Virus record (IMG/VR): IMGVR_UViG_3300027963_000017
Span: 1 to 34,968 of that record
Direction: 5' to 3' (one strand)
Origin: a virus
DNA length: 34,968 nucleotides
Below, one piece after another: positions 17,512 through 30,595 of the stretch (the stretch's first letter is position 1; every line of letters starts with the position of its first letter). A program made the translations under genes and the position numbers. Under the pieces are notes generated by a model, which saw only the letters and a program-made list of their open reading frames with translations, was not told the DNA's origin and searched no databases.

Positions 17512-20500
17512 ATGGCAACTACATTTACGCCACCTACATTAGATGCGGCTTCAGTTAAAGCTGCTTTAGCAGCTCAATCAAAAAAAAGCACTAATACTGG
17601 TTCTGATTTTGCGTTTCATAATCTTAATTACGGCGATGGAAACAGCCTTCTTATTGGTTATTGGACCACACAAAATAAAGATAATTTACTTGCTAAGTAC
17701 AATATTCCGGGACTTAATCTTAAATCTGTAAACGCAAATATAGTAACTGGAGCGGCGTTATTTGGAATTAATAAATACGTTATTGATGGTTCTCGTGTTG
17801 AGTATTTAGGGGATATGAATAAAGCGGCTAAACAAGCCGGAATAGAAACAAAAGGGAAGTCAAAAAAACAAATTTACGAAGAATTAAACCAAAAAGGTAA
17901 GGGTTTGTATGCTGTTGTTTCCAGAGGGGGAAACACAAAAAATCATTTTACTTCTTTATATAGAGAAGAAGGGAATACATTAGTTCCTGTTAAAAATTTT
18001 GATGGAAGTTATGCTTCACAAGAATTTAATTCTGATTGGAAAAGAAAAACAGAAACTATTACTGAACAAATAGTTAATAGTCCAATTGTAAGACTTTATG
18101 CAGGTATTGTAACTGGAGGAATGAGTTTAACAACTCAACTTGCTACAAATGCTTTATTTGATATTGCTCAAGGAAAGTCATCTCAAGATGTTATTAGAGG
18201 CATTGTTGGCACAGTTGCCGCTAACGAAGTTGTTGGAGTTTTAAAAGGAATAAACCAACAAATTGCTGGAGTTGGTCCACAATTTTTTAAAGACGATGTT
18301 GTTTCAGCGTTAGCTAATGCTGAGAGACAAGCAGTATATGCTCTTGCAACTAATCAAGATGTTGGTACCGCTGCGTTAGCAGGTGCTGCTGGTGGAGGTG
18401 CTGCAAGCCTTTCTTCTTTGCTTACAGACGATAAGTTACTGCAACAAGCAGCAGGTGAATTTGTTAAAAGTCTTGCCTCTGGAACAAATTTACAAATAGC
18501 ATTAAATGATGCTTTATCTGGATACCTTTTAGATTCAGCTCTGGCAAAAGACGAGGCAGAAAAAGCAATAAAAAAACAAGTTGCTGCTGATATAGAAAAT
18601 ATTGAGTTTAGCAAGTTAAGTGATTCTCAAGCAGAATTTCTAAAAAATACGTATGTTCAATTAGTTGGCTCGGATATTGACGGAAGAACTGTAATGGCAG
18701 CAGAAATGTCTGCTGCACCATCAGAGGATTGGCCTAAAATTTTTCCTGAAGCTGATTTTAGATACGACCCAGCTGGAAAAGTAGGAAACGTATTTCAAGT
18801 AACCAATAATCAAGGCGAGGCAATTTTAGCTAGGGAGATTACAAATCCCGACGGCGTAAAATTTTATTTTTACTACAACAATGCAACTGGAGAAACAGGA
18901 GTTTCTCAATATGTATTGGGTTCTGGCAAAACTCTTGAAGAACAATTTTCTATCAATGTAGATGCACAAATTCCTGAAACTAAATTATTAAATTTAATTA
19001 ACTCTGGTGCCAATCTCAGCACAGGAAATGTAAGCGTTGGTGGAGGTAATAACGTAACTAGCAATATTGCAGACGTAATTATTAATAGCGGTAATGTTGT
19101 AAGTGACGTAAGCAATGTTGCAACTGGAAACGTAACTACAGGTAATGTAAGTACGGATAACGTTAGTACAGGTAACGTTAGTATCGATGGTGGCAATACA
19201 ACTAGCGATGTAATAAATCTAATTAACTCTGGTGCTAATGTAAGCACAGGTAATGTAAGTCTCGACAATGTAAGCACTAGCAATGTTAGTACAGGTAACG
19301 TGGCAACAGGAAACGTTAATGTAACTAGCGATGTAATAAATTTAATCAGCTCTGGCGGCAATGTAAGCAGTAACGTTGGAAACGTAACTATTGATAATGG
19401 CAACGTTGCAAGCAATATAAGTGACGTAGGAAACGTAACGCTTACAGGCGGCAATGTAGTAAGCAATGTTGGCAACGTAACTCTTGATGCCGGAAACGTA
19501 GTTAGTAATGTAGGCAACGTAACAGTAGAGGCAGGAAACACTACAAGCGATTTACTAAACTTAATTGCTACAGGAAGCAACGTAACCATTGATGCTGGTA
19601 ACGTGACTAGTAATGTTGCAAATGTAACTAGCAATGTTAGCGATGTAATTAGCGATACAGGTAATGTAACTACTGATGCAGGGAACGTAGTCATTACTGG
19701 CGGCAACGTAGCAGCCAATGTAACGAATACAACGAGCGATTTAATCAACTTAATTAATTCTGGTGCTAACGTAACTAACGATGTGGGTAATGTAACCCTC
19801 ACCGGAGGAAACGTAACAAGTAACGTAGTTGACGAGATTAGTAATGTTGGCAATGTAACTATTGCGGATGCAAACGTAACTAGCAACTTAGGTAATGTCA
19901 CTCTTACCACCGGTAATACTACAGCTGATTTAATTAACTTAATAAATTCAGGTAGCAATGTTAGTAATGTAGTTATTGATTCCGGCAACGTTACAAGCAA
20001 CGTAAGCAACGTAGCCAGCAACGTAGTTATTGATTCGGGGAACGTAACTAGCAATTTAGCGAATGTAGTTATCGACTCTGGAAATGTAGCCAGTAATTTA
20101 AGTAACGTAATTATTGATTCAGGTAACGTAGTTAGTAACTTGAGCAATGTAGTCATTACTGGCGGCAACACAACGGCTGACTTGATAAACCTAATTAATT
20201 CCGAAGGCAACGTAACACTTGATAGTGGAAATGTAGCCAGCAACGTGGTTATCGACTCTGGAAACGTAACTAGTAATTTGAGTAATGTGGTTATCGACTC
20301 AGGCAATGTGGCAGCCAATGTAAGCAACGTGGTTGTTGATTCTGGAAACGTAGCAAGCAATGTTAGTAATGTTGTTGTGTCTGGAGTTGATACTAATGTA
20401 GCAAACGTGACTACAGGGAACGTCAGCACAGGAAATGTCAACGTAACAAGTGATTTAATAAACTTGATTTATTCAGGCGGCAATGTAAGTACAGGAAATG

Positions 20501-21138
20501 CAGTTGTTTCTGACGGCGGCACTAACACAGAAAATGTAACTAGCAATGTGGTTGTGTCCGGCGGCGACATTAATACGACAAACTTAATTAGCAATGTAGT
20601 TGTATCTGATGGTGTAGCAAACGTATCAAACGTTAGCACCGGAAACGTAACTATTGATAGTGGAAACACAACAGCAGAATTAATAAACTTAATAAATTCA
20701 GGCGGTAATGTCAGCACAGGAAATGTAACTACAGATAACGTAATTACTGACAATGTGACTAGCAATGTAGTTGTCTCTGGTGGCGAAACAAACGTATCAA
20801 ATGTTAGTACAGGCAACGTAAGTACCGGAAATGTTTTGATTTCAGGCGGTGGAACTAACAACGCAAATGCTTCTGTTGAAAACGTAAGTAGCAATGTGTC
20901 TACGCCTAGAAACAATACTATTTTGTTGTCTTTGTTAAATCAGCCTATTAATAGAGAAATTTTACCGATGAGAACGCCTAGTCAGACTAATGCTTCTCCG
21001 GGTAGTGCTGCATTAGCGCAAGCGTTACGTATTGGAGATGCTGGTGCTCCGGTATTTGGTGGTGACAAAGAGAAAAGTAAGCGGTCTGGCTGGAACGTAG
21101 AATCGTTACGTTATATGGGTAATTCGGAGGATAAATGA
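17512..21138 (+). CDS. Giant Asn-Val repeat virion protein
   Basis: 1208 residues, the largest protein here. Residues 1-490 are a mixed domain with an Ala/Gly-rich helical, membrane-interaction-like stretch (TAALAGAAGGGAASLSSLL near 288). Residues about 491-1133 are degenerate repeats of G-N-V and S-N-V units, interrupted nine times by D-L-I-N-L-I-N-S-G. A conserved-looking C-terminus (SPGSAALAQALRIGDAGAPV) and the following ejection-type genes suggest a virion or ejected protein, or a very long fibre. It has no recognisable enzyme domain. The stop overlaps the next gene by four bases (ATGA). AGGATTTAG is a weakish ribosome site. Confidence 0.7.
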   Translation: MATTFTPPTLDAASVKAALAAQSKKSTNTGSDFAFHNLNYGDGNSLLIGYWTTQNKDNLLAKYNIPGLNLKSVNANIVTGAALFGINKYVIDGSRVEYLGDMNKAAKQAGIETKGKSKKQIYEELNQKGKGLYAVVSRGGNTKNHFTSLYREEGNTLVPVKNFDGSYASQEFNSDWKRKTETITEQIVNSPIVRLYAGIVTGGMSLTTQLATNALFDIAQGKSSQDVIRGIVGTVAANEVVGVLKGINQQIAGVGPQFFKDDVVSALANAERQAVYALATNQDVGTAALAGAAGGGAASLSSLLTDDKLLQQAAGEFVKSLASGTNLQIALNDALSGYLLDSALAKDEAEKAIKKQVAADIENIEFSKLSDSQAEFLKNTYVQLVGSDIDGRTVMAAEMSAAPSEDWPKIFPEADFRYDPAGKVGNVFQVTNNQGEAILAREITNPDGVKFYFYYNNATGETGVSQYVLGSGKTLEEQFSINVDAQIPETKLLNLINSGANLSTGNVSVGGGNNVTSNIADVIINSGNVVSDVSNVATGNVTTGNVSTDNVSTGNVSIDGGNTTSDVINLINSGANVSTGNVSLDNVSTSNVSTGNVATGNVNVTSDVINLISSGGNVSSNVGNVTIDNGNVASNISDVGNVTLTGGNVVSNVGNVTLDAGNVVSNVGNVTVEAGNTTSDLLNLIATGSNVTIDAGNVTSNVANVTSNVSDVISDTGNVTTDAGNVVITGGNVAANVTNTTSDLINLINSGANVTNDVGNVTLTGGNVTSNVVDEISNVGNVTIADANVTSNLGNVTLTTGNTTADLINLINSGSNVSNVVIDSGNVTSNVSNVASNVVIDSGNVTSNLANVVIDSGNVASNLSNVIIDSGNVVSNLSNVVITGGNTTADLINLINSEGNVTLDSGNVASNVVIDSGNVTSNLSNVVIDSGNVAANVSNVVVDSGNVASNVSNVVVSGVDTNVANVTTGNVSTGNVNVTSDLINLIYSGGNVSTGNAVVSDGGTNTENVTSNVVVSGGDINTTNLISNVVVSDGVANVSNVSTGNVTIDSGNTTAELINLINSGGNVSTGNVTTDNVITDNVTSNVVVSGGETNVSNVSTGNVSTGNVLISGGGTNNANASVENVSSNVSTPRNNTILLSLLNQPINREILPMRTPSQTNASPGSAALAQALRIGDAGAPVFGGDKEKSKRSGWNVESLRYMGNSEDK
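18985..20910 (+). repeat. Degenerate in-frame Asn-Val repeat array
   Basis: About 1.9 kb encoding short units of five to nine residues centred on Asn-Val (G-N-V-x-S-N-V). Nine D-L-I-N-L-I-N-S-G markers occur near 18991, 19215, 19337, 19557, 19747, 19935, 20187, 20459 and 20685, with spacings from about 120 to 270 bases. The Asn-Val pair is written with at least six codon combinations (AACGTA, AATGTA, AACGTT, AATGTT, AACGTG, AATGTG), so the protein pattern is kept while the DNA has diverged. Confidence 0.85.
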
Positions 21139-28188: not shown

Positions 28189-28537
28189 TATCAGCGACTA
28201 AGTACCATTCGGTGATGTAGTCTTTAAACTCAATTAAGCCCTTGCCGGATTGGACGTAGCTGCCGTCCGGCATAATTCTCCAAAAGCTGCCTACGCGCAT
28301 CCCGTTCTCTGTATCGCCAGAGACCACTAAAACCGTGGTCTTAGGAAGCCTTGAGAGGGCTTTTAAGAGGATTTCTTGGCCTTTGCTTATCTTCTCCCCG
28401 TCTCGCTTCCATTCGCCGAACAGGAAGTGTTCCTTGCGTTCTAGGACCATGTCCAGATTAGACGGCAAAACCTTGCCAAGCAGTCCTGACAGCTCCCCAA
28501 AATCAACGTGGGGAGCATACTTGTCGCGCATCATCAT
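28181..28537 (-). CDS. Small possible PD-(D/E)XK nuclease-like protein
   Basis: 118 residues beginning MMMRDKYAPHVDF. N-L-D-M-V-L-E-R (about 27-34) followed by L-F-G-E-W-K-R resembles the D...ExK core of PD-(D/E)XK nucleases, with a downstream S-K-G-Q-E-I-L-L-K-A-L helix and a T-T-V-L-V-V-S-G strand in the expected places. No homologue is recalled with certainty. The ATG overlaps the previous stop (ATGATG). It is the last left-arm gene and ends tail-to-tail over the methyltransferase gene. Confidence 0.6.
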   Translation of the reverse strand: MMMRDKYAPHVDFGELSGLLGKVLPSNLDMVLERKEHFLFGEWKRDGEKISKGQEILLKALSRLPKTTVLVVSGDTENGMRVGSFWRIMPDGSYVQSGKGLIEFKDYITEWYLVADIT

Positions 28538-29271
28538 GGTGCTTGGAGCAGCTGACCTTCAAACGGGTAGGTGCCAACGTGACCGAGATTTATCCACGGA
28601 GCAGCCCATACCTTTTTGCCGTGAGTCCGTGCTTTTTTGCAAAAGTCGTAATCTTCAGACAAAAGCAATTTGCTCTCTGGCTCAATCTGAGTCGCAAAGA
28701 ACTCATGAATGGTCTGTCCATTGTCCTTGTTTTGCATATCCAAGACGTTATTTAAGTACATGGGAACGTGACCGATTAAATCCTCAAAGACTTCTCGCTT
28801 AATCAGCATGAAGCCTGTGCCGCCGTTCCAAATCTCTACTGGCTTATTAATTGGCACCGTTACTTCGTTCTTATAGTCCACCAGATTAACTACAAACGCC
28901 CCTGTATGGTGCTTTAGTTGGTCATTGGGTACACCTGCATCGATAGCGTTACGAACGGTTTGCCAGTTGATTTCTTTCTTCGGGTAGATGCCACAAATAA
29001 TGTCTTTGTCGGCTTCTATCATTGGGAAGATGTCATTGGGATTGAACTTGATGTCAGCATCAATAAACATCATGTGCGTAGCATCAGACTTTAGGAAATG
29101 ACTAACTAGCAGGTTCCTAGCTCTCTGAATTAACGACTCATTAAACAAGAAAGAAAAGCTCACATTCATGCCAGCTTCTTTACAAGTATTTTGAAGCTGT
29201 AAGCATGATTGTGCGTAGAAGCCAAAGCATTGGCCGCCGTACATCGGTGTTGCAACGAATAGGTGTTTCAT
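28534..29271 (-). CDS. GT-A type glycosyltransferase
   Basis: 245 residues. It begins MKHLFVATPMYGGQCFGFYA and shows a GT-A pattern: R-A-R-N-L-L-V near 50, then F-I-D-A-D-I-K-F (the DxD-type metal site, about 69-76), G-G-T-G-F-M-L-I-K-R near 150 and L-S-E-D-Y-D-F-C near 204. It probably transfers a sugar to DNA, a virion protein or a host surface glycan. The ribosome site AAGGGATAACA precedes the ATG. Upstream in its leader (29292-29314) a GGGGC/GCCCC hairpin with a 13-base loop may form. Confidence 0.75.
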   Translation of the reverse strand: MKHLFVATPMYGGQCFGFYAQSCLQLQNTCKEAGMNVSFSFLFNESLIQRARNLLVSHFLKSDATHMMFIDADIKFNPNDIFPMIEADKDIICGIYPKKEINWQTVRNAIDAGVPNDQLKHHTGAFVVNLVDYKNEVTVPINKPVEIWNGGTGFMLIKREVFEDLIGHVPMYLNNVLDMQNKDNGQTIHEFFATQIEPESKLLLSEDYDFCKKARTHGKKVWAAPWINLGHVGTYPFEGQLLQAP

Positions 29272-29334: not shown

Positions 29335-30234
29335 TCAGAGGGACTCGCCTTCCAGATAGCGGGGGTTCAAAATTCTCCAAGCTGTTGCTGCACACAATGG
29401 CACTTGTCCGTTGCCAATGGCTTTAATTCTGTCCACTCTAGAGGCCAACCCATCAACCACTCTGTCCACGTTGGGTTCAGTTTTCCACCAGTTTCCGCAC
29501 CCACGACCAAAGCCAAACCCGGCGACTGTCTTTTGTCCCTTTGCCTCGTCATTGACTCCTTCGTTCCTGTGTCTTTGTAATCCCTCGTCACAGGAGTAGG
29601 CCACATTTGAACTAGTCTTCCCAACCCCACACTCCCATCTATGCCGTTCTGATTCACTTTTCTTGGCATCCCCGTTGAGGTTGTGTAAAACGTATCGTTC
29701 TTTCCAATAACTGAGCCTGTTGTTCCATCGCTGGCTACCGGGGTGGGAAGCATGAATCCAAATACGGTTTCTTTGATGGGGTGCGCCGACATCTGCTGCT
29801 CCCAACACTCCCCATTTCGCATCAAACCCCATGCCGGCAAGGTCTGACAAGACTCTGTCGAGTCCTCGAATAGTGAGCATTGGTGAGTTTTCAATGAATG
29901 CGTACTTGGGTCGTACTTCGCAAATGACCCTTGCCATTTCTCGCCACATTCCGCTTCGTTCTCCGTCAAGTCCATCTCCTTTTCCTGCAATGGATATGTC
30001 CTGGCATGGAAACCCTCCCGATACAACGTCAACAATTCCTCTCCACGGCTTTCCGTCAAAGGTTTGAACGTCATCCCAAATCGGGAAAGGCGCAAGAAAT
30101 CCGTCATTTTGTCGGGCGCACAATACGCTTGCGGGATAGGGTTCCCATTCAACAGCACAGACTGTTCGCCATCCGAGAAGTTTTCCCCCAAGTATTCCTC
30201 CACCAGCGCCCGCGAAAAGAGCCAACTCATTCAC
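29335..30234 (-). CDS. dcm: C5-cytosine DNA methyltransferase
   Basis: 299 residues from a GTG at 30234. All core motifs are present: I L-F-A-G-A-G-G-G (6-13), IV G-G-F-P-C-Q-D-I-S (catalytic Cys77), VI E-N-S-P (115-118, usually E-N-V), VIII Q-R-N-R-I-W-I (154-160) and X G-N-G-Q-V-P (274-279). The target recognition region lies between about 165 and 260. It methylates cytosine C5 in a short unknown site, probably to block restriction. A second long ORF runs through it in another frame on the same strand (29367-30230). The GTG sits only three or four bases after the poly-G, a poor spacing. Confidence 0.9.
   Translation of the reverse strand: MNELALFAGAGGGILGGKLLGWRTVCAVEWEPYPASVLCARQNDGFLAPFPIWDDVQTFDGKPWRGIVDVVSGGFPCQDISIAGKGDGLDGERSGMWREMARVICEVRPKYAFIENSPMLTIRGLDRVLSDLAGMGFDAKWGVLGAADVGAPHQRNRIWIHASHPGSQRWNNRLSYWKERYVLHNLNGDAKKSESERHRWECGVGKTSSNVAYSCDEGLQRHRNEGVNDEAKGQKTVAGFGFGRGCGNWWKTEPNVDRVVDGLASRVDRIKAIGNGQVPLCAATAWRILNPRYLEGESL
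29367..30230 (-). CDS. Dual-coded ORF inside the methyltransferase gene
   Basis: 287 residues on the same strand as dcm in another frame, with 97% of the methyltransferase gene read twice. ATG at 30230 overlaps the RusA stop (ATGA) and sits eight bases after a poly-G ribosome site. An internal ATG at 30107 (MTDFLRLSRFGMTFKPL) may be a second start. Features: SFAKYDPSTHSLKTHQCSL, twice a L/W-P-T-P-V motif, and a C-terminal G-G-K-L-N-P-T-W-T-E-W-L-M-G-W-P. From memory this is a widespread phage protein, often annotated hypothetical, next to or over dcm genes. The segment W-T-E-L-K-P-L-A-T-D-K is the shifted reading of dcm motif X, so part of its conservation may be passive. Confidence 0.6.
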   Translation of the reverse strand: MSWLFSRALVEEYLGENFSDGEQSVLLNGNPIPQAYCAPDKMTDFLRLSRFGMTFKPLTESRGEELLTLYREGFHARTYPLQEKEMDLTENEAECGEKWQGSFAKYDPSTHSLKTHQCSLFEDSTESCQTLPAWGLMRNGECWEQQMSAHPIKETVFGFMLPTPVASDGTTGSVIGKNDTFYTTSTGMPRKVNQNGIDGSVGLGRLVQMWPTPVTRDYKDTGTKESMTRQRDKRQSPGLALVVGAETGGKLNPTWTEWLMGWPLEWTELKPLATDKCHCVQQQLGEF

Positions 30235-30595
30235 TTTCCCCCCCAGGAATTTCTTCGATTAGCACCCTAATAAGACCACCTTTTAATGGTTCGCCTCGAA
30301 TCATCTCAATGTGGTCAACCTGAAAATCATCATCGAAAACACCAGCATCTTGTAAGCTGTCTAGGACGGCTTTAATCCTGTTATCGATGTCAATTTTCCT
30401 TTTATCTCTGGGACGCAAAATCATTGTTATCTTCAATTTCTTGTCCTCAAACTTAGGAATGTTCTTTTCTATAATGTAGTCCTGAACGTCAGTTTTGAAT
30501 TGCCGTCCTGCTTTTGAGAGAACAGTTCTTCCTCGAAAGTTTCGCCAGTAGGTATTCATACTTGGCGGGAACGGCAACTCAAGCCATACGTGCAT
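30227..30595 (-). CDS. rusA: RusA-type Holliday junction resolvase
   Basis: 122 residues from the ATG at 30595, chosen because it overlaps the previous stop (TAATG); a TTG at 30601 adds two. It shows P-F-P-P-S-M-N-T-Y-W at the start and the RusA acidic core K-I-D-I-D-N-R-I-K-A-V-L-D-S-L (Asp69, Asp71) with D-D-D-F-Q-V-D downstream, which coordinate the catalytic metal. RusA cuts four-way junctions made by recombination. The stop overlaps the start of the dual-coded ORF and lies within the dcm start. Confidence 0.88.
   Translation of the reverse strand: MHVWLELPFPPSMNTYWRNFRGRTVLSKAGRQFKTDVQDYIIEKNIPKFEDKKLKITMILRPRDKRKIDIDNRIKAVLDSLQDAGVFDDDFQVDHIEMIRGEPLKGGLIRVLIEEIPGGESE

Follow-up and report, generated by a model that had tools for sequence, protein, structure and literature searches.

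Two long frames on the minus strand of the window (the whole stretch analysed, a 34,968-base virus record, IMG/VR IMGVR_UViG_3300027963_000017) very probably specify a single C5-cytosine methyltransferase made of two chains; from the motifs carried by each frame and their behaviour among relatives, we put the probability of this reading at a little under nine in ten. Alpha (29335–30234, minus strand, GTG start, 299 aa) would be the catalytic large-domain subunit, with motifs I–VIII and X and without motif IX, providing SAM binding, the catalytic cysteine loop and, at its close, motif X; this assignment draws on Pfam, PHROG, AlphaFold and Foldseek. Beta (29367–30230, minus strand, ATG start, 287 aa), open in the +1 frame with respect to alpha and characterised from its sequence, PHROG and its relatives, would supply the missing small domain, namely the target-recognition region together with the motif IX that organises this region against DNA. 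The preliminary description had reported two long frames sharing 864 bases of one strand, and the ORF positions bear this out. In this register, the wobble base of alpha is the second codon base of beta, and the wobble base of beta is the first codon base of alpha.

A catalytic chain and a shared ribosome site

First of all, motifs I, IV, VI, VIII and X of C5-cytosine DNA methyltransferases occur in order in alpha, and their positions are directly supported. Alignment with M.HhaI places motif I (FAGAGGG, 30196–30216), motif IV with the catalytic Cys (GGFPCQDIS, 29992–30018), motif VI (FIENS, 29884–29898) and motif VIII (HQRNRIW, 29758–29778), all on the minus strand; motif X (IKAIGNGQVP, 29398–29427, minus strand) is recognised from the sequence and is followed by a confident helix in the AlphaFold model of alpha. 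Alpha matches PHROG 363 (3.8e-67) and Pfam DNA_methylase (PF00145, E=4e-31). The Pfam match ends at residue 178, the stretch between motifs VIII and X is predicted to be disordered and motif IX lies in the +1 frame, so alpha does not hold a recognition domain and motif IX of its own in the same chain. The AlphaFold model agrees in its confidence profile, with residues 1–170 at pLDDT about 90–98 apart from one block at 75, residues 281–290 again confident, the motif X helix at about 96, and residues 205–241 and 253–272 below 50. Foldseek finds M.HaeIII (1dct) and M.HhaI as best matches of this model over ~170 columns, which is the large domain only. The window locus thus resembles these enzymes in its large domain and in the order motif VIII, variable region, motif IX, motif X, whereas M.HhaI and M.HaeIII are single chains with all motifs in one frame. 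Alpha residues over the recognition region are hardly conserved in the alignment of relatives. The low-confidence residues 253–272 correspond to a conserved EPxVxRVxDGxxxRVDR, and the +1 frame there (29425–29484, minus strand) reads motif IX; conservation of EPxVGRVADGV in such alpha chains would be explained as a shadow of the beta motif IX, with no functional motif of its own.

Second, the two frames appear to be served by one ribosome site. The beta ATG overlaps the RusA stop as ATGA, and a run of seven G (30238–30244, minus strand) forms a shared Shine-Dalgarno-like site 7 nt from the beta ATG and 3 nt from the alpha GTG, in keeping with the earlier view that beta has the better start. An xTGAATG layout, with the alpha start 4 bases 5′ of the beta ATG, is present in 67 of 84 relatives; in most of the remainder, alpha starts 12–30 bases upstream and the Shine-Dalgarno-like site still lies 5–9 bases before the beta ATG, a spacing that 71 of the 84 keep. 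Both chains would start at this single site (GGGGGGGAAAGTGAATG) and would thus be made together, and should assemble as one active enzyme. As a homopolymer at the common ribosome site, the G run could also shift the alpha:beta ratio through changes in its length. We infer that beta is translated, forms a complex with alpha and determines the target site, and that the assembled enzyme methylates phage DNA, probably for protection from host restriction. The locus neighbours RusA and weak matches to RecT and YqaJ. No restriction gene was recognised among the neighbouring genes examined, and the methyltransferase thus looks like an orphan phage enzyme. Just downstream of it, at 28534–29271 (minus strand), is a borderline Anp1-like (glycosyltransferase) match. 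Elsewhere in the window, a 511-codon ORF (18906–20441, minus strand) lies antisense to a 1208-aa gene at 17512–21138 and is probably a composition effect.

Selection on the beta frame

Synonymous-codon shuffling of alpha leaves 5.5 stops on average in the beta frame against none in the real sequence, and none of 500 shuffles is free of stops. The +1 frame lies over a C5-methyltransferase in 325 of the 332 matches to beta (325 phage, prophage and bacterial loci, which are non-independent samples and in which some frame breaks are possibly assembly errors). Together these results uphold the proposal that beta is a real, conserved, dual-coded partner of the methyltransferase. In 74 relatives left after deduplication, no stop interrupts the beta frame before the end of beta or of alpha, whichever comes first (L079 being counted only to its early stop, taken as the end of its beta), and the third frame of the same set has 18.9 stops observed versus 15.6 expected. 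Frequent beta stops among close relatives had been named as a sign against the protein; such stops are rare, with one clear case in the window clade, L079 (2501–3322), where beta stops at codon 33 and alpha is intact, which could reflect a sequencing error or loss. In the opposite sense, alpha stops at codon 107 in L056 (834–1685) and at codon 254 in L057/L058 (2501–3409), with beta intact in each; the former may reflect decay, loss or sequencing error, and the latter decay or sequencing error.

Similarity scores have to be read with care here. On the real DNA, the beta profile gives 367.5 bits, compared with 181.6 ± 15.2 on 1000 synonymous shuffles, and because a recoded gene still reaches about 182 bits in the shifted frame, database similarity by itself is no proof of beta; the warning in the preliminary description that a shifted reading of a conserved gene can look conserved was thus sound. 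This residual score, which makes the similarity partly a shadow, is also what could be said for beta not being made at all, its apparent conservation arising from that of alpha or from a DNA or RNA element. Such an explanation is extremely improbable, since the real score lies 12 standard deviations above the shuffles and the four-fold sites of alpha are nearly twice as conserved as those of control genes (0.72 identical versus 0.39 in flanking genes of the same contigs, in the window clade at 65–70% amino acid identity), which is the excess constraint in the second frame that had been suggested as a check. The distribution of substitutions speaks against it as well. Over the recognition region, the window clade differs at alpha positions 1/2/3 at rates of 0.435/0.292/0.385, distant nested loci at 0.324/0.165/0.218 and the clade with motif IX in the alpha frame at 0.305/0.140/0.143; the freest base is the first of alpha, which is the third of beta. 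The same peak at beta position 3 occurs in Firmicutes-, mycobacteriophage- and Bacteroides-like groups and in prophages. Greatest freedom at the third position marks a frame that is translated; a DNA or RNA element would not produce it. Selection on both frames is directly supported, and on beta it acts at the protein level.

Motif IX in beta and its movement between frames

Beta matches PHROG 1008 (1.2e-22) and has no match among Pfam and NCBIfam models. Its variable middle is predicted to be the target-recognition region (29580–29750, minus strand), with two xPTPVxxD modules (29727–29750 and 29580–29603) and substitutions that peak at beta position 3. Relatives have 0 to 5 P[TS]P modules upstream of motif IX and beta lengthens with their number, as expected for a modular recognition region; beta residues are somewhat better conserved at codons 196 to 270. 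The C-terminus (LNPxWxEWLMGWPxxWT; LNPTWTEWLMGWPLEWT in the window, 29430–29480, minus strand) is the C5-methyltransferase motif IX that alpha lacks. This identification draws on a group of enzymes, typified by locus L161, that carry motif IX in the alpha frame: hhalign aligns beta with them over exactly the LNPTWTEWLMGWPLEWT segment (27 columns, probability 98, 52% identity), and the counterpart in L161 and relatives is RLNPDWVEWLMGFPSSWTE, in the alpha frame and directly 5′ of motif X. HMMER in turn pairs the RLNPDWVEWLMGFPSSWTE segment with M.HhaI KTRKLHPRECARVMGYPDSY, just before motif X, in an alignment that spans M.HhaI KTRKLHPRECARVMGYPDSYKVHPSTSQAYKQFGNSVV, the known motifs IX and X; the second-domain part of this alignment is weak alone (4 bits) and co-linear, and it rests on position and on the adjoining motif X. 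The C-terminal motif, described earlier as recurrent in phage proteins annotated hypothetical, is indeed recurrent, and what was taken for an unknown phage motif is motif IX. An AlphaFold model of beta alone has a pLDDT of 59, and Foldseek finds no fold match for this low-confidence model, as would be expected if beta needed alpha in order to fold, although this proves nothing. A sequence search of beta against solved structures gave one match (E=0.078), which we set aside as spurious.

The position of motifs IX and X is not fixed among relatives. The first natural swap, found in 28 loci, places motif IX in the alpha frame. Four-fold identity over motifs IX and X then drops to 0.39–0.41, the level of the flanking genes, and the codon-position pattern there flips to that of alpha (0.117/0.058/0.308), with the +1-frame recognition region still constrained (0.86–1.00). 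Loci L326–L350, L360, L160 and L161 make up a clade with motif IX in the alpha frame and the recognition region in the +1 frame, which includes loci of intracellular bacteria (Bandiella). In the second swap, motif X has moved to the beta frame, in L149 (3001–4167) and L164 (2983–4497), and the alpha frame after motif VIII has 7 and 6 stops, respectively. Alpha ends soon after motif VIII in these two loci, an M.AquI-like split within a nested gene. Among ordinary nested loci, on the other hand, 260 of 267 have no alpha stop anywhere in the recognition region, although 3.7 stops per locus are expected from beta-synonymous shuffles. Each frame is open just as far as the motif that it carries, and complementarity is directly observed through the swaps. 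As far as motif content can tell, these natural exchanges agree with alpha and beta completing one another, and they indirectly support a need for both chains in methylation.

These observations also bear on whether ribosomes could make a single long chain by frameshifting, leaving alpha for the +1 frame to read the recognition region and motif IX and returning to alpha for motif X. Two shifts would give every part of a single-chain enzyme in the right order, and L149 and L164 would require just one. The window design, however, requires two shifts of opposite sense, and beta is equipped with a start codon and a ribosome site of its own, also in relatives whose alpha begins 12–21 nt further upstream. 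Furthermore, both frames are jointly constrained over hundreds of bases, which a shifted product does not need, and alpha is kept open through a recognition region in which its own residues are unconserved; frameshifting is thus unlikely.

Another reading takes beta as a separate effector (an inhibitor, an anti-restriction protein or a regulatory protein) that shares the DNA by happenstance. Beta is a distinct polypeptide, and its sole functional database label is that of PHROG 1008, ‘DNA methyltransferase’. An unrelated effector would not be expected to hold the very motif IX that is absent from alpha, nor motifs IX and X to change frames among relatives, and no stand-alone beta homologue occurs in the 325 loci, nearly all of which were retrieved by beta queries. 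We consider a separate effector very unlikely. Stand-alone homologues had been anticipated for a real protein; their absence from these loci is consistent with a subunit that has no use apart from alpha. Among the functions offered by the preliminary description, a specificity helper comes closest, given motif IX and the recognition region in beta, and an inhibitor or anti-restriction protein finds no support.

Relation to known enzymes and breadth in phages

A two-chain C5-methyltransferase as proposed here would be of an already known kind. The small chain of M.EcoHK31I is said, from work by Lee, Kam and Shaw in 1995, to be encoded within the large gene in another frame, with both chains needed for activity; the window shares this nesting. 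The M.AquI genes are not known to be nested, along their length, in different frames. M.EcoHK31I consists of two polypeptides, with motifs I–VIII and X in the large chain and motif IX only in the small one, and its predicted recognition region is placed in the large chain (PMC3404938). M.AquI also has two chains, the small one holding part of the variable region and motif IX (PMC3404938). By the motif partition described for M.EcoHK31I and M.EaeI (YGGCCR), the window system is alike, with motif IX only in the second chain and I–VIII and X in the first. It differs in that M.EcoHK31I is known from bacterial restriction-modification systems, whereas the window locus has no recognised restriction gene nearby; in that beta covers alpha almost completely (287 of 299 codons) from a common ribosome site; in having the recognition region in beta; and in its breadth and its two swapped arrangements. 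M.AquI is closest to L149 and L164, where beta also bears motif X, whereas motif X of the window is in alpha, motifs IX and X being together in the second chain only in these two relatives. Conventional single-chain enzymes of small enterobacterial plasmids (L406 and L407) were ruled out as M.EcoHK31I relatives, the +1 frame of L406 having 28 stops. PHROG 363 and PHROG 1008, which match alpha and beta, are both already labelled DNA methyltransferase, although they are listed as separate families and the PHROGs output does not link them as two chains. Our search for literature on nested phage methyltransferases found only mentions of M.EcoHK31I and M.AquI. With M.EcoHK31I as precedent, the real novelty anticipated in the preliminary description is not one of kind; by comparison with these systems, what appears new is the breadth among phages and the specificity region in beta.

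This breadth is considerable. The same arrangement is found in phages of Salmonella, Acinetobacter, Vibrio, Pseudomonas, Stenotrophomonas, Mycobacterium, Paenibacillus, Lacticaseibacillus, Bacteroides, Microcystis and Synechococcus, the frames being checked for those named phages whose sequences were retrieved; further relatives are on contigs binned with many bacterial phyla and with two archaeal MAGs, and in IMG/VR. The annotation of Paenibacillus phage Shelly calls the nested frame ‘g55 internal gene’. It seems likely that these loci represent C5-methyltransferases of an old, obligately two-frame type, carried by phages across many bacterial phyla. The second frame would always hold the specificity region, and motifs IX and X would have moved between frames during evolution, so that neither gene is freely changeable; the PTP modules of beta, 0 to 5 in number, might then provide exchangeable specificities.

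A protein that is routinely called ‘hypothetical’ or left unannotated is probably half of a common phage enzyme. Many phage methyltransferase entries would consequently be incomplete and, expressed by themselves, would seem inactive. Two frames of 300 codons, conserved across distant hosts and with motifs that change frame, allow the origin and persistence of overlapping genes to be tested cleanly in nature.
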